Assembly (NCBI RefSeq): GCF_001083785.1
Contig: NZ_LAVL01000009.1
Location: forward strand, 1-64,000
Length of the DNA stretch: 64,000 nt
Source: Nonomuraea sp. SBT364
GTDB taxonomy: Bacteria > Actinomycetota > Actinomycetes > Streptosporangiales > Streptosporangiaceae
Reading direction: 5' to 3'
Below, piece by piece: positions 4,496 through 25,814 of the stretch. Position 1 is the first letter of the stretch. The number at the start of each line of letters is the position of its first letter. The notes beneath the pieces are model-generated. The model was given only the letters and a program-made list of their open reading frames with translations. It had not been told where the DNA came from and made no database searches. The position numbers and the translations under genes were made by a program.

Positions 4496-6526
4496 CTAGT
4501 CGCGGTCGTTGCTCACGGTCGTCTTCTGGACCTGGAGCAGGAACTCCGCGTTGGACTTGGTCTCCTTCATCTTCTCCAGGAGCAGCTCCAGCGCCTGCTG
4601 CATGTCGAGCGCGTGCAGCACCCGGCGCAGCTTCCAGACGATCTGGAGCTCGTCCTTGCCCATGAGGATCTCTTCCTTACGGGTGCCGGACGCGTCGACG
4701 TCCACCGCGGGGAAGATGCGCTTGTCGGCCAGGGAGCGGTTGAGCTTGAGCTCCATGTTGCCGGTGCCCTTGAACTCCTCGAAGATGACCTCGTCCATCT
4801 TGGACCCGGTCTCGACCAGGGCCGTGGCGAGGATCGTCAGCGAGCCGCCGTTCTCGATGTTGCGGGCGGCGCCGAAGAAGCGCTTGGGCGGGTAGAGGGC
4901 CGTGGAGTCGACACCACCCGACAGGATGCGCCCGGAGGCCGGGGCCGCCAGGTTGTAGGCGCGGCCGAGCCGGGTGATCGAGTCGAGCAGGACGACCACG
5001 TCGTGACCCAGCTCCACCAGGCGCTTGGCGCGCTCGATGGCGAGCTCGGCGACCGTGGTGTGGTCCTCGGCCGGACGGTCGAAGGTCGAGTGGATGACCT
5101 CGCCCTTGACCGACCGCTGCATGTCGGTGACCTCTTCGGGCCGCTCGTCCACGAGCACGACCATCAGGTGGCACTCGGGGTTGTTGCGGGTGATCGCGTT
5201 GGCGATCGACTGCAGCACCATCGTCTTGCCGGCCTTGGGCGGCGAGACGATGAGGCCGCGCTGGCCCTTGCCGATCGGCGACACGAGGTCGATGATCCGC
5301 GTGGTGAGGATGTTGTGCTCGGTCTCCAGCCGCAGGCGCTCCTGCGGGTAGAGAGGCGTGAGCTTGTTGAAGTCGGGCCGGTTGCGGGCCTGCTCCGGGT
5401 CCATGCCGTTGACGGTGTCGAGGCGGACCAGGGCGTTGAACTTCTCGCGCCGCTCGCCCTCACGCGGCTGCCGGACGGCGCCGGTGATGACGTCGCCCTT
5501 GCGCAGGCCGTTGCGGCGGATCTGGGCCAGCGAGACGTAGACGTCGTTGCTGCCCGGCAGGTAGCCGCTCGTCCTGACGAACGCGTAGTTGTCGAGGATG
5601 TCGAGGATGCCGGCGATCGGGATCAGGACGTCGTCGTCGCCGATCACGGGCTCGCTGCTGTCGAAGCGGTCGCGGCCACGGCCACGGTTGCGCTCCCTGA
5701 ACCGGCCACGCCGGCCACGGCCGCGCTCGTCGTCGTCGCCACCACCGCGCTGGTCGCCGCGCTGGTCACGCTGGTCACCCCGGCCGGCGTCGGCGACACG
5801 CTGGTCGGCGCGCCCGTCACGGCCATCGCGACCATCGCGACCGCCGTCACGACCGTCACGGCCACCGTCACGGCCGCCATCGCGTCCGTCACGGGTGTCG
5901 CGGGTGTCGCGGATGTCACGGGTGTCGCGGCCGCCGTCGCGGCCACCGTCACGGCCGCCCTCACCGCGGTCGTTGCCGGAGCGGTCACCGCGGTCACGGC
6001 GCTCGCCGCGGCTGCGGCGCTCACGACGGCTCTCGCCGCGCTCGCCACGCGAGTCGCCCTGAGGCGCCTCGGCGGGCTGCACGGGCTGTACGGGCTGCTC
6101 GGTGATCGGCTCGGCCGTAGCCGCGACGGGCTCGGCGGCCGGGGCCGCGGCCGCCGGCTCGGGGGCCTGCACGGCAGGCTCGTCCGCAGTCTTCGCACGG
6201 GAACGTTCCCGGCGCGTCCTGGTGGGCCGCTCGGCGGCCGGGGCCGCGTCAGCCGCGGCGGGCGCCTCGGCCGCCGGGGCGGGGGCGCCGTCTCCCGTGC
6301 CACCCTGCTTCTCCTGGATGGCCGCGATGAGCTGGCTCTTCCGCATGCGCCCGGTCCCGCTGATGCCCAGTTCGGCGGCCATCTTCTGCAGCTCGGGCAG
6401 CACCTTGGCGGACAGGCCGGTGCCGGAGCGACGCGCACGCGGCTTGGCCGCGGCGCGGGTGGGGGTGTCGCCGGACGCCGCAGATGTGCCTGGTGCGTCG
6501 GAGAGGAGTTCGGTGGTGTCGCTCAA
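4496..6526 (-). CDS. rho: transcription termination factor Rho with long Arg/Asp/Gly-rich insert
   Basis: 676 aa, versus about 420 in E. coli. Rho is a hexameric RNA-dependent ATPase helicase that ends transcription of untranslated RNA. Residues 38-75 match the Rho N-terminal helical domain ([18 protein letters not shown]). Residues about 80-290 are a low-complexity Ala/Pro then Arg/Asp/Gly insert, typical of actinobacterial Rho but long here. The cold-shock-like RNA-binding domain follows at about 295-365. The ATPase core carries Walker A PPKAGKT (429-435), a [11 protein letters not shown] segment and [11 protein letters not shown] (Walker B). All catalytic segments look intact. It is preceded by thrB on the same strand, after a 457-bp leader. 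Confidence 0.97.
5807..5959 (-). repeat. short tandem repeat coding the RDG/RDT array of Rho
   Basis: Imperfect 9-bp units (pattern cgt-gac-ggc/acc on the coding strand) encode repeats of Arg-Asp-Gly, Arg-Asp-Thr and Gly-Gly-Arg-Asp at residues 190-240 of Rho. The array is in frame and continues into looser DQRGDQRGG repeats. Such slippage-prone arrays are expected to vary in length among strains. Confidence 0.85.
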
Positions 6527-6983: not shown

Positions 6984-7901
6984 TCAGCGTGTCTCGGGGA
7001 ACTGAACGGTCGCACCACCGGGGTCGACGTCCATTAGCTGGATGTGCCAGTCATTACCCACTTCTGGCGCGATCAAATCCTGCGAATCCGAGGTCGAAAA
7101 CGCAAGGACCGTGGGACCCGCTCCCGAAACGACCGCGGGCACGCCCACTGCACGCAGACGTTCTACCAGATCCGCGCTCTCCCGCATCGCAGGCGCGCGG
7201 TAGTGCTGGTGGAGCCGGTCTTCGGTGGCGGCGAGCAGCAGCGCCCGTTCGGGCCTCCGGGTCAGCGCGGCGATCAGCAGCGCGGCCCGGCCGGCGTTGA
7301 AGGAGGCGTCCTTGTGGGGCACGTCCTTCGGCAGCAGCCCCCGGGCGGTCTCCGTCGACAGCCGCGTCGCCGGAACGAGCACGACAGGACGGACGCCCGC
7401 GTCGGGAACCAGCTTCACCATACGCGGTGCGCCGCCGTGCTCGCTCCAGGCGATGGTCAGGCCCCCGGCCAGGCACGGAGCGACGTTGTCCGGGTGCCCT
7501 TCCATCTCGGTGGCCAGCGCCAGCACGCCGTCGTCGCTCAGCGCCCCGCCGCCCTGCCCGCCCGTCGCCAGGGCGCGGGCCGCGAGGATGCCCGCGCACA
7601 CGGCCGCCGACGAGCTGCCCAGGCCCCGGGCGTGCGGGATGCTGTTGCGGCACCGCATGCGGATCCCGGCCGGCTGCGCCACGCCCATCCGGTCGAACGT
7701 CCTGCGCATCGCCCTGACGACCAGGTGGCCCTCCCCGGTGTCGACCTCACCGGCGCCCTCGCCCTCGACGGTCACCTGCGCCCCGTCGCCGGCCAGGGTG
7801 ACCTGTACGTCGTCGTACAGGCTCAGGGCCAGGCCCAGGGAGTCGAACCCGGGGCCCAGGTTGGCCGACGTGGCCGGCACGCGGATGTCAACGGTCCTCA
7901 T
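6984..7901 (-). CDS. thrB: homoserine kinase
   Basis: 305 aa. It phosphorylates homoserine to O-phosphohomoserine with ATP, the penultimate step of threonine synthesis. It is a GHMP-family kinase: the N-terminal PATSANLGPGFDSLG (9-23) and the ATP-binding glycine/serine loop PHARGLGSSSAA (89-100) are both present, with a C-terminal SGAGPTVLAF segment. The ATG at 7901 has a purine-rich GGAGAAGGAAGG upstream. It follows thrC by 175 bp that contain two hairpins, so it may be partly uncoupled from thrC. Confidence 0.96.
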   Translation of the reverse strand: MRTVDIRVPATSANLGPGFDSLGLALSLYDDVQVTLAGDGAQVTVEGEGAGEVDTGEGHLVVRAMRRTFDRMGVAQPAGIRMRCRNSIPHARGLGSSSAAVCAGILAARALATGGQGGGALSDDGVLALATEMEGHPDNVAPCLAGGLTIAWSEHGGAPRMVKLVPDAGVRPVVLVPATRLSTETARGLLPKDVPHKDASFNAGRAALLIAALTRRPERALLLAATEDRLHQHYRAPAMRESADLVERLRAVGVPAVVSGAGPTVLAFSTSDSQDLIAPEVGNDWHIQLMDVDPGGATVQFPETR

Positions 7902-8076: not shown

Positions 8077-9135
8077 TCAGGCGAGGCCGAGGGCCGCGGC
8101 GGCGGCGTGGACGTCGATGGGGATGGTGACCGGCGAGGGGGCACCGGAGATGGCCCAGTCGGGGTCCTTGAGGCCGTTGCCGGTGACCGTGCAGACGATC
8201 CGCTGGCCGGGGGCGACGAGGCCCTGGGCGTGGGCCTGGAGGAGACCGGCGACGCTGGCCGCCGAGGCGAGCTCGACGAAGACGCCCTCCTCCTGGGCCA
8301 GGAGCTTGTAGGCGGCGGCGATCTGGCGGTCGGTGACCGACTGGATGGCTCCGCCGGACTCGTCACGGGCCGCGGTGGCGAGCTGCCAGGAGGCGGGGTT
8401 GCCGATGCGGATGGCCGTGGCGATGGTGTGCGGGTGGCTGACGGGCGCGCCGTCGACGATGGGCGCCGAGCCGCTGGCCTGGAAGCCGAACATGCGGGGG
8501 CGCTTGGTGGACACGCCGTCGGTGGCGTACTCCTGGTAGCCCATCCAGTACGCGGAGATGTTGCCCGCGTTGCCCACCGGGATGCAGTGGATGTCGGGCG
8601 CGTCGCCGAGCGTGTCGACGATCTCGAACGCCGCGGTCTTCTGGCCCTGGAGCCGGAACGGGTTGACCGAGTTGACCAGGGCGATCGGGTAGTTGGACGA
8701 CAGCTTGCGGGTCATCTCCAGGCAGTCGTCGAAGGACCCCTCGACCTGCAGCAGCGTGGCGCCGTGGACGAGCGCCTGGGCCAGCTTGCCCATCGCGATC
8801 TTGCCGCGCGGCACCAGCACGGCGCACGTGAGGCCGGCGCGCACCGCGTAAGCGGCGGCCGAGGCGGAGGTGTTGCCGGTGGAGGCGCAGATGACCGCCT
8901 TGGCGCCCTCTTCCACGGCCTTGCTGATCGCCATGGTCATGCCGCGGTCCTTGAAGCTGCCCGTCGGGTTGGCGCCTTCGACCTTGAGGAAGACGTCGCA
9001 GCCGGTGAGGGCGGAGACGCGGTGCGCGGGCACCAGCGGCGTGCCGCCTTCGAGCAGCGTGATGACGGGCGTCTTCGTGGTGACCGGAAGACGCTCTCGG
9101 TACTCCTCGATGAGGCCACGCCACGACCTGCTCAT
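8077..9135 (-). CDS. thrC: threonine synthase
   Basis: 352 aa from the ATG at 9135, preceded by AGGGAGAG. It is a PLP enzyme converting O-phosphohomoserine to threonine and phosphate. The PLP lysine is K62 in GSFKDRGM. The phosphate-binding loop [12 protein letters not shown] is present in the middle. The length matches the shorter actinobacterial/archaeal-type enzyme. In most actinomycetes hom lies immediately upstream; here 14 kb of other genes separates them. An upstream in-frame ATG at 9237 would add 34 residues with no family match. Confidence 0.96.
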
Positions 9136-9292
9136 TGGTCTCTCCCTACCTGCGCTGTTGGCCACCGAGTGTACGGGGTCCGCGGGGTGGAGGCCGAGGC
9201 GCGTCCAGCGTGTGGACGCGGGGCCTGACATCGCCATTATTCAGGAAATTCTCAGCATGCCCCGCTAGGGTCGGAGCAGGGGGTTCACATCC

Positions 9293-10756
9293 ATGAACGC
9301 GCGTCCTGCTTTGCCGCAGAACGACTATTCAGCCTTGACGCCACCGGAGCTCGGCGCCTGGTCGCCCGCCCTTTCCGTGAGCGTGGTGATACCGGCGCAC
9401 GGCGGGCCGCACCTGGACCTGACGCTCGCGGCGCTGGCGGCGCAGACCTATCCCGGCCACCTCATGGAGGTCCTGGTCGTGGACGACGGCAGCGATCCGC
9501 CGATCAGCCTGCCGGAGATCCGCCCGGACAACACGCGGATCGTCCGCCCGCGCACCGGCTGGGGCATCTCCAACGCCGTCAACACCGGCGCCAACGCCGC
9601 CGACGGCGAGATCATCCAGCGGCTCGACGCCGACATGGTGACCTGCCGCGAGCACATCGAGGCGCTGGCCCGCTGGCATCACGTGACCGACTACCTGGTG
9701 ACGATCGGCATGAAGCAGTTCGTCGAGGCACCGGCGCTGAGCGCCCGTGAGGTGATGAAGGCCGCCCATCTGGGCGAGCTGTTCGACCTGGACCAGGCGG
9801 TGCCGAGCTCCACCGAGGCGACGATCGCCAAGACCGACGGCCTGCGCAAGAGCCGCAATCCCTACCATGTCTGCACCGGCCCGACGTTCGCCCTGCCCAG
9901 GGACGTCTTCCACGCGGCCGGCGGCCTGGATCCCCACGTGCTGCGCGGCGAGGACACCGAGTTCGCCTACCGGCTGGCCATGCAGGGCGTGGTGTTCGTG
10001 CCCGACCCGGAGGCGCGGGCGGTGCACCTGGGGCTGCCCGCCCAGCACCGCGACCGCGAGCGCGCCGTACGGGCCGTCGAGCCCTACCTGGCGCACCGCG
10101 TCCCGCTCCGCCGCGACCTGCGCAAGGACCGGGGCCGCCGTTGGCTGGTGCCGTACGTGGAGATCGTCCTGGACGTCACCGACACCTCCGAGCCGGTGGT
10201 GCGGCGGGCGGTGTCGGCGGCGCTCGACGGCAAGCTGCAGGACGTGGTCGTCACGCTGGTCGGCCCATGGTCGCGGCTGGGTGGCGGGCGGCGGCCGGTG
10301 CTCGGCGACCCGTGCTTCGAGCTGCGGCTGATGCGCGACCTGTTCGCGCACGACGAACGGGTCAGGCTCATCGACGAGGCGGCGCCGACGCCCGCGCCGG
10401 TGCCCTTCCGCTATCGCGGGCCGGTGGACGTGCCGCTGCACCGGGCGACGCTGGACCGGATGGTCGAGACGGCGCAGAAGGACCTGACGGGCGTCCTGGT
10501 CGTGGACCTGCCCGGCGGCCGCACGGCCCGCCTGGAGCGCACCTCGGCGCTGGCCCGCGCGGCGCTGCTCACCGCGCCGGGTGACGACCCCGACGAGGTC
10601 ATCCGCGAGACCCACGGGATCGCGCACGTCTCCCCGGAGCGTTACTGGCCCCAGGCGTCGGAACGGCCACCGGCCCCGGTGACCATCCCCGCCGCGCCGG
10701 ACGCCGCCGAGCAGTCACTGCTGGGCCGCCTGAAATCGGCCCTGCGCCCCAACTGA
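9293..10756 (+). CDS. family 2 glycosyltransferase with extra C-terminal domain
   Basis: 487 aa. The N-terminal GT-A fold (about 25-290) has VSVVIPAH, VVDDGSD (DDG 64-66), the metal-binding DAD at 112-114, and GEDTEFAYRL (ED 220-221) as the expected catalytic acid region. It starts with the NDYSALTPPELGAW signature shared with three other genes in this insert. Residues about 290-450 form a second domain also shared with them, reading like a degenerate GT-A/Rossmann unit without DxD (VVVTLVGPW). No membrane segment. It stands alone, convergent with the gene at 10810-12450. Donor and acceptor are unknown; a role in surface glycan assembly is inferred from the family. Confidence 0.85.
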   Translation: MNARPALPQNDYSALTPPELGAWSPALSVSVVIPAHGGPHLDLTLAALAAQTYPGHLMEVLVVDDGSDPPISLPEIRPDNTRIVRPRTGWGISNAVNTGANAADGEIIQRLDADMVTCREHIEALARWHHVTDYLVTIGMKQFVEAPALSAREVMKAAHLGELFDLDQAVPSSTEATIAKTDGLRKSRNPYHVCTGPTFALPRDVFHAAGGLDPHVLRGEDTEFAYRLAMQGVVFVPDPEARAVHLGLPAQHRDRERAVRAVEPYLAHRVPLRRDLRKDRGRRWLVPYVEIVLDVTDTSEPVVRRAVSAALDGKLQDVVVTLVGPWSRLGGGRRPVLGDPCFELRLMRDLFAHDERVRLIDEAAPTPAPVPFRYRGPVDVPLHRATLDRMVETAQKDLTGVLVVDLPGGRTARLERTSALARAALLTAPGDDPDEVIRETHGIAHVSPERYWPQASERPPAPVTIPAAPDAAEQSLLGRLKSALRPN

Positions 10757-10809: not shown

Positions 10810-12450
10810 TCAGGGGCGTGGGGTCTTGCCCAGGGCGCGTTTGACCGTGGTCGTCAGCAGCGTGCGCAGGCTCTCCTGGGCGCGGGCGGCGGCGGCGAGC
10901 CGGCGGCGCAGCTCGCCGCTCTCGCGGCGCAGCGTGCCGACCTCGCGGCGCAGTTCGACGGCGCTCTTGCGCCAGCGGCCCGCCTCCTCACGCCACCTGG
11001 TCATCTGGGCGCGCAGCCGCTCGGCCTCGGCGGCCAGCCGTGCGCTCTCGGCCTCGGCCGCCACCCTCGCGTTGTAGGCGGCACGCCGCCCGGCAGGCTT
11101 GGGCGGCTCCCTGGTGAAGCCGTACGCCTCGCCCTCGACCCACGCCACGCCCGACACCTCGTCGACCACGTCGTCGAGCCGCTCCCCCGGCCGGGCGAGC
11201 AGGCGGGCCCGGGAGAAGTACGCGACGCGCTCCAGCCGGGCGGCCTCGATCCCCGTGGCCGACTCCGCGAGCAGCACGTTGACCAGCCCGAACTCCTCCT
11301 CACGCGCCACGTCCAGGAGCCGGGCCAGGGAGTCCTCGCCGGGCGCCCAGCCGGGCGGCAGGCGCAGCACGTACGGCACGCGGGGGTCGGGCTCGCCGGT
11401 GGTGACGAGGCCGACCCGGCCCTCGTGCTCGTAGTGGCCGTGCACCAGCACCAGGTCCAGGCGCGGGTCCTTCAGCGGGGCCCGGCGGTCGCGCTCCAGG
11501 TCGTCCCACGGGCCCACGACGTGCACGCGCACGTCGTTCACGGTGCCGGCGAGCAGCGCGTCGACGGTGGCGCGCACGTCCTCGTACGGCGCGGTGCCGT
11601 CGACCACGGCCACGACCCCGGGGACCAGCCACTGGCGGCCCGGGTGCGAGCGCAGCCAGCGGTAGGCGGGGATGCGGTCGGCCACGAACGCGTGGCTGAC
11701 GCGGTCGATGCGCGGTTTGTCGCGCATCCGCATGGTGGGGCCGAGGTGGTAGCCGCGGGCCTCGGGCTCGGGCACGAACACCGCGCCGGCCTGCGCCAGG
11801 CGGTAGCCCAGCTCGGTGTCCTGGCCGAGGATCAGCTCGTCGTCCATCGGGCCGGCGGCCTCGACCAGCCGGGCGCCGACCGAGGTGTTGCCGCCCACGT
11901 GCACGCTGAACGGGCGCGGCGAGTTGTCGGTCAGCCCGTTGGTGCGCTCGACCAGGTCGACGATCCAGGCGTGCGGCTCGGCGGGCTCGAAGTACGCCTC
12001 CGGGTCGGCCGGCAGCGAAGCGGGCAGCGCGGCCTCGCTGAAGCGCAGGTAGCCGTAGACCACCAGGTAGGGGGCGGCGTGGTGCCAGCGCATGTGGGCG
12101 GTGAGCGCGCCGGCGGTGAGCACCACGTCGGAGTCGATCCAGTGGATGACGTCGCCGGTCGCCTCGGCGAGACCGGCGTTGCGGGCGCAGGCCCGGCCGG
12201 GGGTCTCGCAGCGGACGAGCCGGGTGCCGGCCGGGCGTTCGGCGGGCAGCCGCAGCGGCGGCGTGGTGCCGTTGTCGACGACGATGACCTCGGTCAGCTC
12301 GGCCGGGTAGGTCTGCCTGGCGAGCCCGGCGAGCGTCAGGTCGAGCTTGTCCTGGCCGCCGTAGGCGGGCACGATCACGCTGACGCGCAGCTCGGGTGTG
12401 TAGCCGGCGGGCGGTCGCAGCGGGCGGTAGTCGTTGCCGCGCAGTCTCAT
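10810..12450 (-). CDS. family 2 glycosyltransferase with coiled-coil tail
   Basis: 546 aa from the ATG at 12450, which overlaps the upstream stop by ATGA. An earlier in-frame start at 12489 lies inside the preceding gene and is less likely. The RGNDYRPLRPP signature is followed by VSVIVPAY, VVDNGTT, DSD at 106-108 and GQDTELGYRLAQAG. A second conserved domain spans about 285-450 (VRVHVVGPW, RLERVAYFSRARLL). The tail (about 465-546) is an Arg/Glu/Ala-rich coiled coil. It is a paralogue of the genes at 9293, 14155 and 17552. It is soluble, so any membrane contact would be through the tail or a partner. Confidence 0.85.
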   Translation of the reverse strand: MRLRGNDYRPLRPPAGYTPELRVSVIVPAYGGQDKLDLTLAGLARQTYPAELTEVIVVDNGTTPPLRLPAERPAGTRLVRCETPGRACARNAGLAEATGDVIHWIDSDVVLTAGALTAHMRWHHAAPYLVVYGYLRFSEAALPASLPADPEAYFEPAEPHAWIVDLVERTNGLTDNSPRPFSVHVGGNTSVGARLVEAAGPMDDELILGQDTELGYRLAQAGAVFVPEPEARGYHLGPTMRMRDKPRIDRVSHAFVADRIPAYRWLRSHPGRQWLVPGVVAVVDGTAPYEDVRATVDALLAGTVNDVRVHVVGPWDDLERDRRAPLKDPRLDLVLVHGHYEHEGRVGLVTTGEPDPRVPYVLRLPPGWAPGEDSLARLLDVAREEEFGLVNVLLAESATGIEAARLERVAYFSRARLLARPGERLDDVVDEVSGVAWVEGEAYGFTREPPKPAGRRAAYNARVAAEAESARLAAEAERLRAQMTRWREEAGRWRKSAVELRREVGTLRRESGELRRRLAAAARAQESLRTLLTTTVKRALGKTPRP

Positions 12451-13508
12451 GCGGCTTCCATGAGCAGGCTCGGGCGGAAGCCGTGCCACTGGTTGGCGGC
12501 GACCTTGAGGAAGTGGCCGAGGGGAAGCTGCCAGGTGTGCCCGCCGCCGAGGCCGCGGCGCAGCACGTAGCCCAGGCCGTGGGTGCGGTAGATGCGGGCG
12601 CCGGACTCGTGGGCGGCCTTGAGGAACTCCCGGTCCACGGCCCGGGGCAGCGCGGGAAAGCCCCCCAGGTCATGAAATGTCGCCCGGGGAACGGTGATCG
12701 TGCCGCCCGCCACGTGGTCGGACCACACCTCGCTCGGGTAGGCCGCCCCGGTGGCGAACGTGGTGCGCCTGATCGTGGTGTCGAGCGGCTCCAGGTAGAA
12801 GAACTCGCCCGCGGTGCCCACCACGTCGGCCCCGGAGTAGGCGGCCGCCATGACCAGGTCGGCCAGGTGGTCGGGGCCGTACCAGTCGTCGTCGTCCCAC
12901 TTGGCCAGGTGGTCGCCGCCGGCCAGCGCCGCCGCCCGGTTGAGCACCTCGCCGAACGGCACCGCGGTCCCGGCCTCCACCCAGGCCACGGGCAGCGGGC
13001 AGGACTCGATCGCCGGGCGCACCTCGTCGTGGGTGACCCCGTGCAGGCCGAGCACGACCTCCACCTCGACGCCGCGCTGGCGGGCCATCCGCTCCAGGGC
13101 CTCGCCGACCCGGGCCGGGCGCTTTGTCGCCATGACGACGCTCACCTTGGGCGTCGTGGCCGGGCGGGCCAGGCGGCGCAGCCGTACGCTGTGCTCCTCC
13201 CTCCGCAGGTCGGCCAGGCAGCGCAGGCCGCCGCCGGGCTCGTGGGCGAGCCAGTCGCGGTCGGTGAGCAGCGTGGCGAGGCCGGCGGGGACCCAGGCGG
13301 GCGCGTGCGCGGCGGTCAGCGGCACCCCGGCGGCGGCGAGCTCCATGATCCCGTCGAGCGGCACCTCGGCGGCGGGCCAGTCGATCTCCAGCCCGCGCAG
13401 GAGCCGAAGTTCCGCGGGGTCGGGCGCCACCCAGGCGCCGTCACGCCAGCGCAGGCACGCCAGCCCCTTCTCCGCCGTGCGGGCGAAGCCGGCCGGGGTG
13501 AGGGACAT
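12447..13508 (-). CDS. family 2-type glycosyltransferase, DDDDW subtype
   Basis: 353 aa. Residues 1-118 are a private domain (PAELRLLRGLEIDWP, EEHSVRLRRLARP). The GT-A domain begins at PKVSVVMATKRP (120) and has KWDDDDWYGPDHL, the acidic DDDD at 205-208. A GGTITVPR segment and a C-terminal YRTHGLGYVLRRG follow. The whole protein aligns by eye with the last 350 residues of the gene at 15645-17555. It is the first gene of a two-gene minus-strand operon, coupled by ATGA to the NDY-type transferase downstream. Its promoter must lie in the divergent region 13509-13720. Confidence 0.85.
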   Translation of the reverse strand: MSLTPAGFARTAEKGLACLRWRDGAWVAPDPAELRLLRGLEIDWPAAEVPLDGIMELAAAGVPLTAAHAPAWVPAGLATLLTDRDWLAHEPGGGLRCLADLRREEHSVRLRRLARPATTPKVSVVMATKRPARVGEALERMARQRGVEVEVVLGLHGVTHDEVRPAIESCPLPVAWVEAGTAVPFGEVLNRAAALAGGDHLAKWDDDDWYGPDHLADLVMAAAYSGADVVGTAGEFFYLEPLDTTIRRTTFATGAAYPSEVWSDHVAGGTITVPRATFHDLGGFPALPRAVDREFLKAAHESGARIYRTHGLGYVLRRGLGGGHTWQLPLGHFLKVAANQWHGFRPSLLMEAA

Positions 13509-13720
13509 GCGCAGCTGCTCCTAGCGGGTCGCACTTGATCGGCGCCTACCTTACGCCGGTTTTTACTCGCGCGTAGCGGTGGGGCTCACTTCCGGCATGA
13601 GGCTGCGAAGCAGATTCACAGTGTGTACACAGCTAACTCTGGCACGGTGGTGACTGTTGTTGAATAAGGTGTCATTAATGCCCTAACGCCCGGATAAGTC
13701 ATAACGAAAGGTTTGAGCGG
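13509..13720. promoter_or_regulatory. divergent control region of the mirrored glycosyltransferase operons
   Basis: 212 bp of relatively AT-rich DNA between the two operon starts. It includes a perfect 10-bp palindrome TGTGTACACA at 13622-13631, a candidate operator about midway. An AAAGG ribosome site at 13707-13711 serves the plus-strand gene. I could not fix -35/-10 pairs with confidence. Both operons could respond to one regulator bound here. Confidence 0.45.
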
Positions 13721-14158
13721 ATGCTTGCGCCCAGCCGGCCGGCAGCCACCGCCGCCGCTCTCGGAGCCCTGGCCCTGGCCGTGCTCGTGCTGCTGGTGCT
13801 CGCGGGCCTGATCTCGTTCGGGGAGGCCGCGGCGGCCGGCGGATTCGTGATCTCGCTCGCCGCGCTCGCCTTCCTGGTCCTCGCCGTACGCCGGATCGAC
13901 GGCAAGGCGCACCGGATCGACCTGCGGGTCAAGAAGTACGAGGCCGAACTGGCCAGGACCACCACCGCGCTGCGGCAGATCGACTCGCGGCTGGACAAGC
14001 TCGTCCGGTCCGTCGAGGAGTCGGGAGCACGGCGCGGCGACGACATCGGCGCCATCCTGGCCTCGCTCGGCGAGGACCGGGTCAACGCCATGGCCCGTGC
14101 CCGAGAGGTGGAGGAGCTTCGCGAGGAGGTCCGCGCGCTCTCCAAGGACCGGGTATGA
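13721..14158 (+). CDS. small membrane protein with cytoplasmic coiled coil
   Basis: 145 aa. Two hydrophobic helices (about 10-29 and 36-57) form a hairpin. They are followed by a basic stretch (RRIDGKAHRIDLRVKKYE) and a long coiled coil (about 60-145) with heptad-like LARTTTALRQIDSRLDKLV. The basic flank predicts a cytoplasmic coiled coil. It opens the plus-strand operon and overlaps the next transferase by ATGA. The glycosyltransferases themselves lack membrane segments but have coiled-coil tails, so this protein could recruit them to the membrane by coiled-coil pairing. That is inference; no family was recognised. Confidence 0.75.
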   Translation: MLAPSRPAATAAALGALALAVLVLLVLAGLISFGEAAAAGGFVISLAALAFLVLAVRRIDGKAHRIDLRVKKYEAELARTTTALRQIDSRLDKLVRSVEESGARRGDDIGAILASLGEDRVNAMARAREVEELREEVRALSKDRV

Positions 14159-15648
14159 CCCGCGTCCGGCACAACGACTACGGCGTGCTGAGCCCGCCCG
14201 CGCTCGGCTCGTGGCAGCCCCGGCTCACCGTGTCCGTGGTCATCCCGGCCTACGACTGCCAGGAGGCGCTGGAGCGCACCGTGGCCTCGCTGGCCGCCCA
14301 GACCTACCCCGCCGGCCTGGTCGACGGCGTCGTCGCCGACGACGGCAGCGACCCGCCGATCCACCTGCCGGGCGCCCGCGTCGTACGGGTGGAGCGGGGC
14401 TGGGGCCGGGGCGCCGCCCGTCAGGCCGGGCAGCTCGCGGCCACCGGTGACGTCATCCACTGGCTCGACGCCGACATGGTGCTGAACCCGGGCCACCTGG
14501 AGGCGCACCTGCGCTGGCACCACCTCATCGACCACGCCGTGGTGATCGGCGAGACGAGATTCGTGGACACGCCTGACGAAGAGGGCGCGCCCACCCCGTA
14601 CACCCTCAAGACGTTGGAGTCGACCCGGAGGCTGCGGGACGCCGGCGCGAGCGCGTACCTGCTGCACACCGGCGCGTCCAGCTCGGTCCGGGCCGAGCTG
14701 CTGCGGGCGGCGGGCGGCGTCGACACCGCGCTGAACATGGCGGAGGACACCGAGCTCGGCTACCGGCTGGCCCAGGCGGGCGCGGTGTTCATCCCCGACC
14801 CGCAGGCCGTCGGCAAGCACGTCGGCCCGTCCACCGTGATGCTGCGGGAGAAGGAGGTGCACCGGCACAACTGGTCCTACCTCGGCGACCACATCCCCGA
14901 CCTGCGCTGGCTGCGCCGCCATCCGCGCCGGATCTGGCTGGTGCCGTACGTGCGGGTCGTCGTGACGGCCACCACCTACGAGGAGACGCGCGCCACGGTC
15001 GACTCCGCGCTGGCCGGCACCCTCGTCGACGCGGCCGTCACGATCGTCGGCCCGTGGGGCGAGCTGACCGGCGAGCGCCGCGCCAGCCTCGACGAGCCGC
15101 TGCTGGACCTGCGGCTGCTGGGCAACCTGTACGCGCACGAGCCGCGCGTGGCGTTCGCCGAGAGCGCGCCCGCGTCCGTCGCGCCCACCCCCTTCTCCGT
15201 GAGCGTCCCCACCGGCTGGGCGCTCGGCGCCGACACGCTCTCCTCCCTGGTACGGCTGGCGGAACAGGACACGCTCGGCCTGGTCAGCGCGGTGCTGTCG
15301 GAGACCGAGGGCGGGGTCGTGGCGGCCAGGCTGGAGCGCACGGCGGCCTTCGCGCGCGCGGCGCGTTTCCCCGGGACGCCGGACGACCTGGTGGACGAGA
15401 TGTTCGGATCGCTGTGGGTGGCCGGCGAGGAGCACGGCTTCACCCCCGTGGACGAGGCGGAGCCGCTGACCGGCGACACGGCCAAGTGGCGGGGCCTCGC
15501 GGCCGGGCGGGCCGCGGAGCTGAAGGCGGCCAGGGCCGAGATCGACCGGCTGTCCGCCGAGGTCGAACGCCTGTCGGCGCCGCCGGGCGACGAGGACGTC
15601 AAGGGGCCGCTGTCGTCCCTGATGAGACACCTGCGGAGCGCCGGATGA
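14155..15648 (+). CDS. family 2 glycosyltransferase with coiled-coil tail
   Basis: 497 aa. The HNDYGVLSPPALGSW signature is followed by VSVVIPAY, a modified ADDGSDPP, DAD at 105-107 and AEDTELGYRLAQAG. The shared second domain (about 275-445) includes TRATVDSALAGTL and TIVGPW. A short coiled-coil tail (about 450-490) ends the protein. Starts and stops overlap by ATGA with both neighbours, so the four plus-strand genes form one translationally coupled unit. Paralogous to the genes at 9293, 10810 and 17552. Confidence 0.86.
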   Translation: MTRVRHNDYGVLSPPALGSWQPRLTVSVVIPAYDCQEALERTVASLAAQTYPAGLVDGVVADDGSDPPIHLPGARVVRVERGWGRGAARQAGQLAATGDVIHWLDADMVLNPGHLEAHLRWHHLIDHAVVIGETRFVDTPDEEGAPTPYTLKTLESTRRLRDAGASAYLLHTGASSSVRAELLRAAGGVDTALNMAEDTELGYRLAQAGAVFIPDPQAVGKHVGPSTVMLREKEVHRHNWSYLGDHIPDLRWLRRHPRRIWLVPYVRVVVTATTYEETRATVDSALAGTLVDAAVTIVGPWGELTGERRASLDEPLLDLRLLGNLYAHEPRVAFAESAPASVAPTPFSVSVPTGWALGADTLSSLVRLAEQDTLGLVSAVLSETEGGVVAARLERTAAFARAARFPGTPDDLVDEMFGSLWVAGEEHGFTPVDEAEPLTGDTAKWRGLAAGRAAELKAARAEIDRLSAEVERLSAPPGDEDVKGPLSSLMRHLRSAG

Positions 15649-17555
15649 TCGACCGGCTGCTGGCCGAGATGCCCAAGGCCCGGGTGTTCCGCACGGGGAT
15701 CGACGACCTGAGCGTGCCGGGCGTCGACCTGGACCGCGACCTGCTGGAGCCGGGCACCGCCGCCGAGACGGCCACGGAGGTGCTGGTGATCGCCCGCACC
15801 CCGGCCGACCTGCGGCGGGCCGCGACCCTGCACAAGCTTTTGCCGGACGCCCGGCGGGTGGTCGTGGCCGTGCTGGACACCCCGGCCGCCCATCCCGCGC
15901 CGGTGCCCACGCCGACGCCCGCGCACCGCTGGCGCGCCCTGGCCGACCTGCGCGTCCACCGTCCCAAGGACCGGGTGTGGGTGGTGGACGCCCGCTTCTC
16001 CGCGCCCACGCCCGCCGGCCGTACCGTGACGGCGACGGCCCGCGCCTTCGCCGGGCACCGGCTCGACGTGATCGCCGCGCCGGCCGCCGCGATCGCCGGC
16101 GTCGGCGCCGCCGACTGGCGGCCCGGCGACCCCAACGCCACCCCCGCCGACGTCACCGGGCCCGTCCCGGAACGCGTCGGGGCGCCGGGCAGCGACCTGG
16201 TCCTGCGCACGCTGGACGCGGAGCCCGCGCCCCTCGCGGTCGTCGACTCCCCCCGGGCCTGGGACGGCGCGGAGACCCCCGTCGAGCGGCCCACGCTCAA
16301 GGCGGCGAGCTGGGAACGGCTGGGCCGGCCGGGAGGCGCGGAACTGTCGCTGGCCGACCCTGACGTGCTCGCCGAGCCGTCCATGATCCCCCCGGTGGAC
16401 GAGCGCCTGGTGAACCCGCAGGGCTTCGTCACCACTCCCACCCGGGGCACGGCCGCGCTGGCCGAACGCGACGGCCGCTGGACGGTGCTGCTGGACGGCA
16501 GACCGGTCACGACGTTCGCCGAGTCGGGCGGCGTGACCGACGCCGACGTGTCCAGGCTGCGCCAGATCCGCGCCGTCGAGATCGACTGGCACCACGCGCA
16601 CAGCGGCCCGCTCGCCGCCGTGCGGGTGCTCGCCGGGCTGGCCGCCGCCGGCGTGCCGCTCTTCGGCGGCCCGGTGCCCCGCTGGGCGGGCGCGCTCGGC
16701 GACGACCTCGTCGCGCTCGTCGAGTCGCCCCCCGACCTGGACGACGACCTGCGGCGCGAGGAGCACAGCATCCGGCTGCGCCGCGCCGCGCTGCGCACGC
16801 ACGGCGTGGCCGCCCGCTGGGAGCAGCTCGGCGCCCCGGCGCCCGCTCCCCCGCTGACCTCGGTCCTGCTCGCGACCCGGCGCACCGACATGGTCGGCTT
16901 CGCGCTCGGCCAGATCGCCCGCCAGCGCGAGGCCCGGCTGGAAGTCGTCCTGGCGCTGCACGGCGTCCCGCCGGGCCATCCGGACGTGGCCGCCGCTGTG
17001 GCGGCCTACGACGGGCCGCTGACCGTGTTCGAGGCCGACGCGCAGGCGGTGTTCGGCGAGGTGCTGAACGAGGCCGCGACCAGGGCGTCGGGGTCGTTCC
17101 TGCTGAAGATGGACGACGACGACTGGTACGGCCCGGACTTCCTGTCGGATCTGCTGCTGGCGCACTCGTACTCGGGGGCGCAGGTCGTGGGGACGGTGCC
17201 GGAGTTCGTCTACCTGTCGTCGATCGACGTCACCGTGCACCGCAAGCAGTTCACCGAGCAGATCACCAGCTTCGTCGCGGGCGGCACCATCCTGGTGGAG
17301 CGCTCGGCGTTCCAGGCGGTGGGCGGGTTCCGGCCGCTGCGGCGCTCGGTCGACACCCAGTTCCAGGAGGCGCTGCAGGCGGCGGGCGGCCAGATCTACC
17401 GCACCCACGGCCTCGGCTACATCCTGCGCCGCGGCCCCGCGGCCAACCACACGTGGCGGGAGCCGATCGGCACGTTCCTGCAGCGCAACCGGCAGCAGTG
17501 GCGCGGTTTCCGGCCGAGCGCCCTCATGGAGCTCGACGGGAGCCCGCGTCCATGA
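15645..17555 (+). CDS. two-part protein: unknown N-terminal domain fused to DDDDW-type glycosyltransferase
   Basis: 636 aa from the ATG at 15645 (ATGA overlap; the frame is open further upstream but inside the previous gene). Residues about 270-636 match the complete gene at 12447-13508: EIDWHHAHSGP, EEHSIRLRRAAL, KMDDDDWYGPDF (DDDD 490-493), and a C-terminal YRTHGLGYILRRGP. Residues 1-260 are an additional alpha/beta domain (TEVLVIARTPADLRRAATL, RRVVVAVLDTP) that I do not recognise; it could bind a nucleotide or another sugar donor. It is a fusion relative to its paralogue. Cytosolic, no signal peptide. Confidence 0.82.
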   Translation: MIDRLLAEMPKARVFRTGIDDLSVPGVDLDRDLLEPGTAAETATEVLVIARTPADLRRAATLHKLLPDARRVVVAVLDTPAAHPAPVPTPTPAHRWRALADLRVHRPKDRVWVVDARFSAPTPAGRTVTATARAFAGHRLDVIAAPAAAIAGVGAADWRPGDPNATPADVTGPVPERVGAPGSDLVLRTLDAEPAPLAVVDSPRAWDGAETPVERPTLKAASWERLGRPGGAELSLADPDVLAEPSMIPPVDERLVNPQGFVTTPTRGTAALAERDGRWTVLLDGRPVTTFAESGGVTDADVSRLRQIRAVEIDWHHAHSGPLAAVRVLAGLAAAGVPLFGGPVPRWAGALGDDLVALVESPPDLDDDLRREEHSIRLRRAALRTHGVAARWEQLGAPAPAPPLTSVLLATRRTDMVGFALGQIARQREARLEVVLALHGVPPGHPDVAAAVAAYDGPLTVFEADAQAVFGEVLNEAATRASGSFLLKMDDDDWYGPDFLSDLLLAHSYSGAQVVGTVPEFVYLSSIDVTVHRKQFTEQITSFVAGGTILVERSAFQAVGGFRPLRRSVDTQFQEALQAAGGQIYRTHGLGYILRRGPAANHTWREPIGTFLQRNRQQWRGFRPSALMELDGSPRP

Positions 17556-19237
17556 CTCCCCGCATCCGCCGCAACGACTACGGCGTCCTCACCCCGCCCG
17601 ACCTGGGCACGTGGGATCCCACCCTGACAGTCACCGTCGTCATCCCGGCGTACGACCGCCAGGCCACGCTGGACCTCACGCTGGCGGCGCTCGCCGCCCA
17701 GTCGTACCCGGCCGAGCTGATGGACGTCATCGTGGTGGACGACGGCAGCGCCGTCCCGCTGCGCCTGCCGCCGCTCGCGCCCGGCCGCACCAAGCTGATC
17801 AGCAGCCCGCCGGGCGGCTGGGGCCGCGCCTGGGCGGTGCAGGCGGGCATCGACGCCGCCGGCGGCGAGGTGATCTTCGTGCTGGACGCCGACATGGTCC
17901 CGCACCGCCACCACGTCGAGGCCCAGCTCCGCTGGCACCACCTGGCCCCGTACGTGGTCGCTCTCGGCTGGATCGACTTCACCTCGGCCACCGGCGACCT
18001 GCCCGCCCCCGAGAGCGTCCGTGAGGCGCTGGAGGCGGGCCGCGAGGACGACCTGTTCCCGCTGTCCGCGCTGCGTCACGACTGGGCCGAGAAGATCATC
18101 CACGACCACGACGGCCTCCGCACCGCGCCGAACTCCCTGGCCACCCGCATCCACGTGGGCGCCACCGTCTCCTACCCGGCAGAGCTGCTGCGCTCGATCG
18201 GCGGCATGGACACCGCGCTCGTGCTGGCCGAGGACACCGAGCTGGGCTACCGCCTCACCCAGGCCGGCGCGGTCTACGTACCGGATCCGGAGTCCCGGGC
18301 CTGGCACCTCGGCCTGCCGACCGCGATGCGCGACTTCGCCGCGCTCAAGCGCTACAACGACCCCTTCGTCGCCGACCGCGTCCCCTACCGCCGCTACCTG
18401 CGCACCGAACGGGGCCGTCAGTGGCTGGTCCCGTACGTGGACGCGATCGTCCCCGCGGCGGGCTTCGAGGACGTACGGGCCACCGTCGACGCCCTGCTGG
18501 GCGGCTCCCTCCCGGACGTCCGGGTCACCATTCCCGGCCCGTGGGAATCGCTGACCGCCGATCGCCGCTCTCCGCTCGGCGACCCGGACCTCGACCTGCG
18601 TCTCATCCACGCCACCTTCGAGCACGACCCGCGCGTCCACCTGGCCGACGCCCCGGGCGGGCCGTCGCCCGCGCCGTTCAGGCTGGTCGTCCCGCCCGGC
18701 TGGATGCCTGGCGAGGACACCGTGGAACGGCTGGTCGCCCATCTGGAGGAGCATGACGGGGGCGCTCTGTGCGTGGCGCTGGACGAGACCGCCGACGGCG
18801 TCACGGTCGCCCGTCTCGACCGCACCGCGGCCCTGTCCCGCACCGCCCTGGTGGCCGCGCCCGGCGAGCACCCGGACGACGTGCTGGACGAGGTCTTCGG
18901 CCTGGAGTGGGCGGACGGCGAATCGTGGGGGTTCGCGCGCCGCCCCGAGGTGTATCCGCCGCGCCGCCGTCCGCTCTCCGAGGCCGACCGGCTCGCCGCC
19001 CAGCGTGAGAAGGAGCTCGCGCTCTACCGCAAGCGCACCGCCGCGCTGCGCGCCGAACTGGCGCAACTGCGGCGCGAGGCGGGCAAGAACGGCCGGGACG
19101 CCGCCAGATGGCGTGAGAAGGCCGAGGAATGGCGGCGCGAGGCGGTCCGCCTGACCCGTGACCGCGACCGCGAACGTGACCGCACGGTCATCAGGCGCGC
19201 GGTCCGGCGGGTGCGCAGAATCGCCTTCCCGAAGTAG
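17552..19237 (+). CDS. family 2 glycosyltransferase with basic coiled-coil tail
   Basis: 561 aa from the ATG at 17552 (ATGA overlap). The RRNDYGVLTPPDLGTW signature is followed by VTVVIPAY, VVDDGSA, DAD at 112-114 and AEDTELGYRLTQAG. The second shared domain (about 285-460) contains VRATVDALLGGSL and TIPGPW. The tail (about 470-561) is a strongly charged coiled coil that becomes Arg-rich at the end (RRAVRRVRR), which might bind phospholipid or nucleic acid. Last gene of the plus-strand operon. It is closest in plan to the gene at 10810. Confidence 0.85.
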   Translation: MTPRIRRNDYGVLTPPDLGTWDPTLTVTVVIPAYDRQATLDLTLAALAAQSYPAELMDVIVVDDGSAVPLRLPPLAPGRTKLISSPPGGWGRAWAVQAGIDAAGGEVIFVLDADMVPHRHHVEAQLRWHHLAPYVVALGWIDFTSATGDLPAPESVREALEAGREDDLFPLSALRHDWAEKIIHDHDGLRTAPNSLATRIHVGATVSYPAELLRSIGGMDTALVLAEDTELGYRLTQAGAVYVPDPESRAWHLGLPTAMRDFAALKRYNDPFVADRVPYRRYLRTERGRQWLVPYVDAIVPAAGFEDVRATVDALLGGSLPDVRVTIPGPWESLTADRRSPLGDPDLDLRLIHATFEHDPRVHLADAPGGPSPAPFRLVVPPGWMPGEDTVERLVAHLEEHDGGALCVALDETADGVTVARLDRTAALSRTALVAAPGEHPDDVLDEVFGLEWADGESWGFARRPEVYPPRRRPLSEADRLAAQREKELALYRKRTAALRAELAQLRREAGKNGRDAARWREKAEEWRREAVRLTRDRDRERDRTVIRRAVRRVRRIAFPK

Positions 19238-23142: not shown

Positions 23143-24435
23143 TTACTCGTCGCCCTCGACGCGCATCACGCTGGCGATCGCCCGGACGATGTCGAGCTCA
23201 CGCAACCCCTCCATGGTCGCCGTCAGGGCGGCGTCGGTGGCGCGGTGGGTGACGATGACGAGCTGGGCGTCGTCGCCGTGCCCCTCCTGCCTGACCGTCT
23301 GGATGGACACGTCGTGCTTGGCGAACAGCTCCGCCACCCGGGCCAGGACACCGGGCTTGTCGGCCACGTCCAGGGCCACGTGGCAGCGGGTGACGGTCTC
23401 CCCCATGGGGTGGACGGCCAGCGAGGCGTAGGTGGACTCCTCCGGGCCGCGGGTGCCGGCGAGGCGGTTGCGGGCGACGGCGACCAGGTCGCCGAGGACG
23501 GCGGAGGCGGTGGGTGCGCCGCCGGCGCCCTTGCCGTAGAACATGAGCTGCCCGGCCGACTCGGCCTCGACGAAGACCGCGTTGTACGCCTCCCGGACGC
23601 CGGCGAGCGGGTGGGACCTGGGGATCATCGCCGGGTGGACGCGGACGCCGATGGAGCGGCCGTCGTCGGAGCGGGCGCAGATGGCCAGCAGCTTGATGAC
23701 GTAGCCCATGGCCTTGGCGGAGGCGACGTCGGTGGCGGTGATCTCGGTGATGCCTTCGCGGTGCACCTGCTCGGCGGTGACGCGGCTGTGGAAGGCGAGC
23801 CCGGCGAGGATGGCGGCCTTGGCGGCGGCGTCGAAGCCCTCGACGTCGGCGGTGGGGTCGGCCTCGGCGTAGCCGAGGGTCTGGGCCTCTTCCAGGGCGT
23901 CGGTGAAGGACGCGCCGGTGGAGTCCATCTTGTCGAGGATGTAGTTGGTGGTGCCGTTGACGATGCCGAGGACCCGGTTGACGTGGTCGCCGGCGAGCGA
24001 CTCGCGCAGCGGGCGCAGCAGCGGGATGGCGCCGGCGACGCTGGCCTCGAAGTAGAGGTCGCCCTTGCCGGTGCGGGCGGCCTCGTGGAGGGCGGCGCCG
24101 TCCTCGGCGAGCAGCGCCTTGTTGGCGGTGACGACGGATTTGCCCCGGGACAGGGCGGCGGTGATGAGGGTGCGGGCGGGCTCGATGCCGCCGATGACCT
24201 CGATGACGATGTCGACGTCGTCGCGCGTGACGAGGGCTTCGGCGTCGGTGGTGAGCAGGGCGGCGTCGATCTCGACGTCGCGTTTGCGGCCGAGGCGGCG
24301 TACGGCGACGCCGGCCAGCTCCAGGGGCGCGCCGATGCGGGCGGCCAGGTCGTGGTGCTGCTCGTGAATGAGCCTGATGACCTGGGAACCCACGACGCCG
24401 CAGCCCAGGAGGGCCACCTTCAACGGTTTGCTCAT
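23143..24435 (-). CDS. hom: homoserine dehydrogenase
   Basis: 430 aa from the ATG at 24435, overlapping the lysA stop by ATGA. It reduces aspartate semialdehyde to homoserine with NAD(P)H, the branch point to threonine and methionine. The N-terminal dinucleotide site is GCGVVGSQV (11-19). The catalytic domain includes [12 protein letters not shown] and [19 protein letters not shown]-terminal ACT domain (about 350-430, [20 protein letters not shown]) suggests feedback control by threonine, as in other actinobacteria. thrC, normally the next gene, is 14 kb away. Confidence 0.97.
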
Positions 24436-25814
24436 AGTTGCCCCCTCAGCAGGTCGTCCTCGGTCTCGCCACGCACGATGACCCGGTTCTGGCCGCCGCT
24501 GACGGCGACCACGGCGGGCTTGGGCAGGTAGTTGTAGTTGCTGGCCAGCGACCGGCAGTAGGCGCCGGTGGCGGCGATCGCGATCAGGTCGCCGGGCGCC
24601 AGGTCGGCGGGCAGGTAGCAGTCGCGCACGATGATGTCGCCGCTCTCGCAGTGCTTGCCGACGATGCGGCTGAGCATGGGCTCGGCGGTGCTCTCGCGGC
24701 TGGCGAGCACGGCGGTGTATTCGGCGCCGTAGAGGGCGGTGCGCACGTTGTCGCTCATGCCGCCGTCGATGCTCACGTACGTGCGCAGCCCTTCGACGTT
24801 CTTGACCGTGCCGACCTCGTACAGGGTGATGCCGCCGGGGCCGGCGATGGCGCGGCCGGGCTCGACGGTGAGGCGGGGCACGGGCAGGCCGGCGTCGGTG
24901 CAGACCTTCTGCACGATCTCGCGCAGGCCGTCGGCGATGCGCTTGACGTCGAAGGTCTCGTCGCCGTCGAGGTAGGCGATGCCGTAGCCGCCGCCGAGGT
25001 CGAGCTCGGGCAGGACGACGCCGTGCTCGCCCTTGATCTGGACGAGCAGGGTGGCCAGGCGGCGGGCGGCGACCTCGAACCCGGCGGTGTCGACGATCTG
25101 GGAGCCGATGTGCGAGTGGAGGCCGACGAGCTCCAGCGACGGCAGTTGCAGGATGCGGCGGACGGCCTCGGCGGCGGCGCCGGCGTTGAGCGACAGGCCG
25201 AACTTCTGGTCGTCGTGCGCGGTGGCGATGAACTCGTGGGTGTGCGCCTCGACGCCGGTGGTGACGCGGATCATCACCTTGGGCCGCAGGCCGCGCTGCT
25301 CGGCGAGGTAGCCCAGGCGGGCGATCTCCTCGAAGGAGTCGACGACGATGTGCCCGACACCGGCTTCGAGCGCCCGGGTGAGCTCGGCGGCGGACTTGTT
25401 GTTGCCGTGCAGGGTGATGCGCTCGGCGGGGAAGCCGACGCTGAGCGCGACGGCGAGCTCGCCGCCGCTGGCCACGTCGAGGCCGAGCCCTTCGGCCTCC
25501 AGCCAGCGGACGATCTCCTTGCACAGGAACGCCTTGCCGGCGTAGTGCACGTCGGAGCCCTGGAAGGCGCCGGTGTAGTCGCGCATGCGCGAGCGGACGT
25601 CCTCCTCGTCGAGCACGTAGAGGGGGGTGCCGTGCTCGCGGGCCAGGTCGCGGACGTCGGCGCCGCCGATCGTGAGCGCGCCATCGGTCCGGCTCGACGT
25701 TCGGGGCCAGATCGCGGGATTGATCCGGTTGAGGTCGTCGGGCGCCAGCGGGGGGCGCTCGTGGGGCGGCGTCTCGGCGTGCCGGTCCCCGGCAGGATGG
25801 GCGAATCGACTCAC
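24432..25814 (-). CDS. lysA: diaminopimelate decarboxylase
   Basis: 460 aa from the GTG at 25814 (VSRFAHPAG is the common actinomycete start; an ATG at 25880 adds 22 unlike residues). It is a PLP enzyme of fold III converting meso-diaminopimelate to lysine. The PLP lysine is in [12 protein letters not shown] near residue 90. The [17 protein letters not shown] and EPGRAIAG motifs are all present. [12 protein letters not shown] and CESGDII form the substrate-side region. It is downstream of the NrtL-like gene and coupled to hom. Confidence 0.96.

Follow-up and report, generated by a model that had tools for sequence, protein, structure and literature searches.

A conserved glycosyltransferase cluster of Streptosporangiaceae and their relatives as a candidate membrane-tethered system for envelope-glycan assembly

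Gene layout and genomic surroundings

The cluster described here is found in Nonomuraea sp. SBT364, a soil actinomycete, in a stretch of 64,000 nucleotides (GCF_001083785.1, contig NZ_LAVL01000009.1, positions 1-64,000, forward strand) that is referred to as the window. It consists of seven genes, A to G, which are listed below together with the gap between the divergent operons and with those neighbours whose NCBIfam scores are above the cut-off.

4496-5647: rho, beyond thrB
6984-7901: thrB, beyond thrC
8077-9237, minus strand: thrC, left neighbour
9293-10756, plus strand: A, NDY-type GT2 glycosyltransferase of 487 aa with no long tail, in an orthologous group of its own
10810-12450, minus strand: B, NDY-type GT2 of 546 aa with a heptad-like C-terminal tail
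12447-13508, minus strand: C, DDDDW-type (DW) GT2 of 353 aa, lacking the N-terminal domain that F has
13509-13720: gap separating the divergent operons, which holds TGTGTACACA at 13622-13631
13721-14158, plus strand: D, 145 aa, two hydrophobic segments and a coiled coil, with a match to the N-terminal region of a family of membrane-anchored methyltransferases
14155-15648, plus strand: E, NDY-type GT2 of 497 aa
15645-17555, plus strand: F, 636 aa, an N-terminal domain of ~250 aa followed by a DDDDW-type GT2
17552-19237, plus strand: G, NDY-type GT2 of 561 aa with a charged helical tail and a basic C-terminus
23143-24435, minus strand: hom, right neighbour
24432-25814, minus strand: lysA, right neighbour

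All four joints inside the two operons (C to B, D to E, E to F, and F to G) are 4-base ATGA overlaps. A preliminary description of this DNA had given the coordinates and strands of genes B to G, their ATGA joining within both operons, and the presence on each side of a DW gene followed by an ATGA-coupled NDY gene (C to B and F to G), all of which agree with a check of the sequence. The genes that it listed do belong to the cluster, but the extent that it gave was incomplete, as a fourth NDY gene, A, is also part of it. A, B, E, and G are the sole NDY matches in the 9.98-Mb genome at E <= 1e-5, and a DW query of the same genome returns C, F, and two weak matches, one at 26576-27214 of the window and one on contig 317. 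The former falls within a gene (26564-28375, minus strand) for a DW relative of 603 aa, whose N-terminal part includes a coiled-coil-like stretch and in which DPRDVYG replaces the DDDDWYG of active relatives; the DDDDW motif is missing from 36/36 low-scoring DW relatives, and this product is possibly a conserved pseudo-glycosyltransferase. On contig 317, the second DW relative (L011:4104-6140) is fused behind a Glyco_trans_1_2 domain.

With thrC, thrB, and rho on its left and hom and lysA on its right, the cluster sits within an amino-acid biosynthesis locus, between hom and thrC of the order lysA-hom-thrC-thrB-rho. G is followed on its right by a TetR gene and small genes, then by hom, lysA, and an nrtL-like gene, which reaches 52.9 bits against a cut-off of 340. 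Further on, the gene at 28479-30113 (plus strand) encodes an asparagine-synthase-like protein that scores below the Pfam and NCBIfam cut-offs; it is kept in 27 loci and directly adjoins the DW-NDY module in three (L067, L091, and L143). The window also holds three adjoining genes of the alpha-amylase family (50919-56836, minus strand), one of them with a CBM48.

A DW match (E <= 1e-20) occurs in 210/297 genomes of the order, the own genome included, and a match to the F profile (E <= 1e-30) in 10/296 genomes drawn from the phylum, again counting the own one. The exact order and strands of the NDY and DW genes of the window are found in 36 of the best 80 of 326 relatives, DW-NDY alone in 20 (some of these loci end at contig ends or flank limits), the order NDY NDY DW NDY in 10, and other orders in 14. 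These counts lean to near relatives because the best 80 of 326 were kept; the closest relatives among the matches listed belong to Nonomuraea. Gene calls in the loci of relatives were made with a home-made codon-position script, whose starts are approximate (A, D, and thrC were placed downstream). In four comparisons, dN/dS by the Nei-Gojobori method, which is rough at this G+C, ranges from 0.20 to 0.45 for all seven cluster genes and from 0.06 to 0.14 for thrC, indicating that the cluster changes faster than thrC. Genes for surface glycans often change fast.

The enzymes and the origin of the mirrored arrangement

All six enzymes, which are cytoplasmic, match Glycos_transf_2 (PF00535) with 26.1-73.4 bits against a cut-off of 23.3. 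The DxD metal-binding motif is kept in 76/77 NDY proteins, and the DDDDW motif in 144/145 DW proteins. The N-terminal domain of F matched no family. NDY proteins show 40-46% identity in every pair (BLAST). In a PDB search, their profile gives chondroitin synthase as the top match (E 8e-35), the alignment staying in register across the first GT2 domain and running into the second. As to the remainder of these proteins, no Pfam GT2 was found in 44 C-terminal halves, while the top PDB match of the C-terminal half is chondroitin synthase at the right place, with E 0.11. An internal duplication of the glycosyltransferase domain was considered and rejected, since hhalign relates the N-terminal half to the C-terminal half with a probability of 0.3%, no better than reversed-column controls (0.1-0.3%), whereas the N-terminal half against the DW domain reaches 57%. 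The evidence on the C-terminal half is suggestive only, and it may represent a degenerate second glycosyltransferase domain.

The ends of the NDY proteins are basic. Among 231 of them, the last 20 residues have a mean charge of +4.5 (-0.6 in internal stretches) and reach +3 in 75% of cases (10% in internal stretches). Their hydrophobic moment is 0.59 versus 0.35, a modest excess over their own shuffles (mean z 0.9). The preliminary description had also given the transferases coiled-coil tails. According to a home-made score of heptad periodicity, this applies to B (p 0.002) and weakly to E (p 0.03), but the signal is not seen for A (p 0.11) or G (p 0.14).

The same description had explained the mirrored layout as a local inverted duplication of a DDDDW-NDY two-gene module around one control region. 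Such an origin is consistent with the DW-then-NDY order and its ATGA coupling on both sides, as well as with the 44% identity between C and F (BLAST; 51% by alignment count). Sisterhood of C and F would be compatible with the DW tree (54 rows), where each of them forms a clade and the branching relative to other DW proteins is left unfixed. The NDY tree, nevertheless, speaks against a local inverted duplication. Among its 84 proteins, the orthologues of A (23 rows), B (19), E (12), and G (12) each form a clade with support of at least 100/99, from which the four NDY proteins are taken to be four old orthologous groups. B joins the NDY proteins of a module located between fba and purA in other genomes (100/98) and then E (88/85), with G apart. 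Holding B and G as one clade, as expected of partners duplicated together, is rejected in the AU test (p-AU 0.007; 45 rows, quick tree). When the fba-purA proteins are put into that clade as well, p is 0.031, this grouping having been defined with knowledge of the tree.

The palindrome fares no better as a control element. Reported between the operons, TGTGTACACA is indeed present, but it occurs in 2/42 loci with a C-D gap, window included, the other being that of N. ceibae; the L059 locus holds one site with two mismatches. The genome contains two copies, where ~1.5 are expected from base composition. With 2/42 loci and a near-chance count, TGTGTACACA was rejected as a shared operator. Other blocks of the gap are conserved among 28 Nonomuraea sequences.

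Moreover, the left and right blocks occur apart. Of 12 extra stretches retrieved, 11 were analysed: eight have the left half without a right half, two a right-type module, and one (L148) both halves. In the eight (L142, L144, L146, L147, and L150-L153), A, B, and C lie between hom and thrC without the D-E-F-G block. The two right-type modules (L143 in genome G220 and L145 in G135) consist of a long methyltransferase form of D, dealt with below, an F-type DW gene, and an NDY gene between fba and purA (both NCBIfam above cut-off). G220 and G135 are also among the eight left-half genomes, and thus carry the left half alone at hom-thrC and the right-type module at fba-purA. Four further left-half genomes (G120, G186, G090, and G283) have an F-type DW gene and the methyltransferase together elsewhere, as judged by coordinates. 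Secondary loss happens too, since L147 retains the deacetylase gene that flanks G in relatives. As the two blocks are found apart, we infer that the mirrored layout arose by juxtaposition at hom-thrC of two blocks, A-B-C on the left and D-E-F-G on the right. Local inverted duplication, with NDY partners that are not sisters, blocks that occur separately, and a palindrome without conservation, is highly improbable. Given the grouping of B with the fba-purA NDY proteins, the C-B pair may derive from an older copy of a DW-NDY module located elsewhere.

In Planomonospora, a gene for an arabinofuranosyltransferase-like (AftA_N) membrane protein lies between both halves (L063:6634-8502), and a relative of this type is located upstream of the module in L090.

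Protein D and the membrane methyltransferase family

D has two strongly hydrophobic N-terminal segments and a heptad-like C-terminal half (p 0.006), according to home-made hydrophobicity and coiled-coil scores. Its nature is clarified by a long form, a gene of ~360 aa present in the loci of 27 of the best 80 of 326 relatives, which consists of a hydrophobic N-terminus, a coiled-coil-like stretch, and a domain matching Methyltransf_24 (above cut-off in 2/2 members scanned). A profile of the 27 long forms matches 50/50 D proteins, those of 49 relatives and the window's own, with E from 3e-27 to 5e-15, and none of these matches extends beyond position ~135 of the 362 in the profile. Searches for the methyltransferase domain gave nothing in D, in the own genome, or in the 54 genomes examined from the genus (E <= 1e-5), while 64/200 genomes of the family, used as a positive control, have it at a different cut-off (E <= 1e-20). 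From membrane to methyltransferase motif, the spacer of the long form measures 107-190 residues in 23/27 members; in D, the part beyond the membrane has a median length of 86 residues. D therefore looks like a methyltransferase reduced to its membrane anchor and coiled coil.

It could be argued that such a protein is just a relic, left behind when the methyltransferase was lost, and plays no part in the glycan system; the absent catalytic domain would fit this, as would the occurrence of the long form without the enzymes. In fact, six of eight further loci (L154-L158 and L160) have the long form but neither a DW nor an NDY gene in the stretch examined, L161 has the long form and a DW gene only, and L159 has all three, so that the role of the long form is not tied to those enzymes. 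Five of the six genomes gave no DW match in the order-wide search.

The position and constraint of D speak against a leftover. Of the best 80 of 326 relatives, four gave no scorable locus; in 73 of the other 76, the first gene of the F operon is D (49) or the long form (24). Among the three operons that lack either at the head, the long form lies upstream in L060 and L076, and L081 has neither. The joint between D and the NDY gene is ATGA-coupled in 41/46 cases. On the tree of F (74 rows), at least three changes of state between D and the long form have taken place, with the head position kept each time. Finally, D shows dN/dS values of 0.20-0.42 (four comparisons), like those of the enzymes. 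On this evidence, a functionless remnant is improbable.

Possible function and comparison with known systems

Six GT2 enzymes with conserved motifs, tight gene coupling, a nearly constant transmembrane and coiled-coil partner, and constraint on all genes make a membrane-tethered assembly system for an envelope glycan the most likely function of the cluster. The preliminary description had proposed a scaffolded glycan assembly line, an idea that gains support from the D family, its place at the head of 73/76 operons, and the basic NDY C-termini; heptad periodicity is significant for D and B, weak for E, and absent for G and A. With moderate confidence, the conserved cluster of Streptosporangiaceae and their relatives is proposed to act at the inner side of the membrane, tethered by D, in the synthesis of a cell-envelope glycan. 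The NDY enzymes would sit on the membrane through their basic C-terminal segments, D would hold them there through coiled coils, and the enzymes would act one after another to attach sugars to a lipid-linked acceptor, the product being exported by another system. D itself would descend from a membrane-anchored methyltransferase; with the catalytic domain lost, the anchor and scaffold would therefore be what was kept.

Alternatively, rather than making a polymer, the enzymes might decorate a small molecule, a cofactor, or a protein. The NDY proteins have the mycofactocin enzyme MftF as their second-best NCBIfam match (84.7 bits, for E), a resemblance in line with this, and no export gene is seen nearby: the 27 window genes scanned with Pfam include no ABC-2 transporter, flippase, or sugar-nucleotide gene. 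Nevertheless, that score is far under the 280-bit cut-off, the best solved relative is a polymerase, the transferases are six, and outgroup relatives lie in polysaccharide-type loci. Outside the order, an ABC-2 transporter gene adjoins DW or NDY relatives in L135 and L140, the former also with a UDP-sugar dehydrogenase and a CsaB-like pyruvyl transferase (CsaB 149.2 bits, below cut-off), and in a distant member of the phylum (L136) a sulfotransferase gene (5684-6472) lies among NDY and DW relatives. Decoration is therefore rather unlikely, and assembly of an envelope glycan remains preferred.

The joint presence of six transferases and a membrane coiled-coil protein across many genera of the order points to an undescribed envelope glycan. 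The repeated switch between the methyltransferase form and the bare anchor with coiled coil offers a natural test of whether the role of this protein is mainly that of a scaffold. No publication on the cluster was found in the open-licence library searched; the glycosyltransferase passage of PMC8269224 names an SCO4878-type gene, which is taken here as another locus.

Among characterized enzymes, the E. coli K4 chondroitin synthase K4CP/KfoC (PDB 2z86, 2z87) resembles the NDY proteins in that their profile spans the first of its GT2 domains and enters the second. Unlike K4CP, NDY proteins have no detectable intact second GT2 domain and bear an added helical tail. Their best NCBIfam matches, EpsD (108.7 bits at most) and MftF, do not reach the curated cut-offs (370 in the case of EpsD), and the alignments stop at the first domain. 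The lack of an ABC-2 transporter among the 27 genes scanned also sets the window apart from ABC-transporter-dependent glycan loci.

As described in the passages of PMC11231755 and PMC3482155 that deal with it, WbdD of the O9a O-antigen is a membrane-associated coiled-coil protein and terminating methyltransferase that recruits glycosyltransferase modules. Relatives of D likewise combine a membrane segment, a coiled coil, and a methyltransferase in one protein, and D keeps the coiled coil. However, D is anchored by N-terminal hydrophobic segments and WbdD by a C-terminal amphipathic helix, no kinase was found, and the methyltransferase is gone in the window. A bolder proposal, which we regard as speculative and rather unlikely, is that of a Gram-positive counterpart of the WbdD terminator-ruler made from other parts: in Sphaerisporangium, Nocardiopsis, and others, the transmembrane coiled-coil methyltransferase would cap chains and recruit GT2 polymerases, its catalytic head would have been lost repeatedly, so that Nonomuraea retains a scaffold alone, and the conserved DW relative at 26564-28375, with its lost DxD motif, may be a second, non-catalytic scaffold of this system. 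Because the anchor is of another kind and the methyltransferase is absent in the window, the likeness is one of analogy and not of family membership; loosely, WbdD and its polymerase provide the nearest working analogy for this cluster, with putative recruitment and termination.
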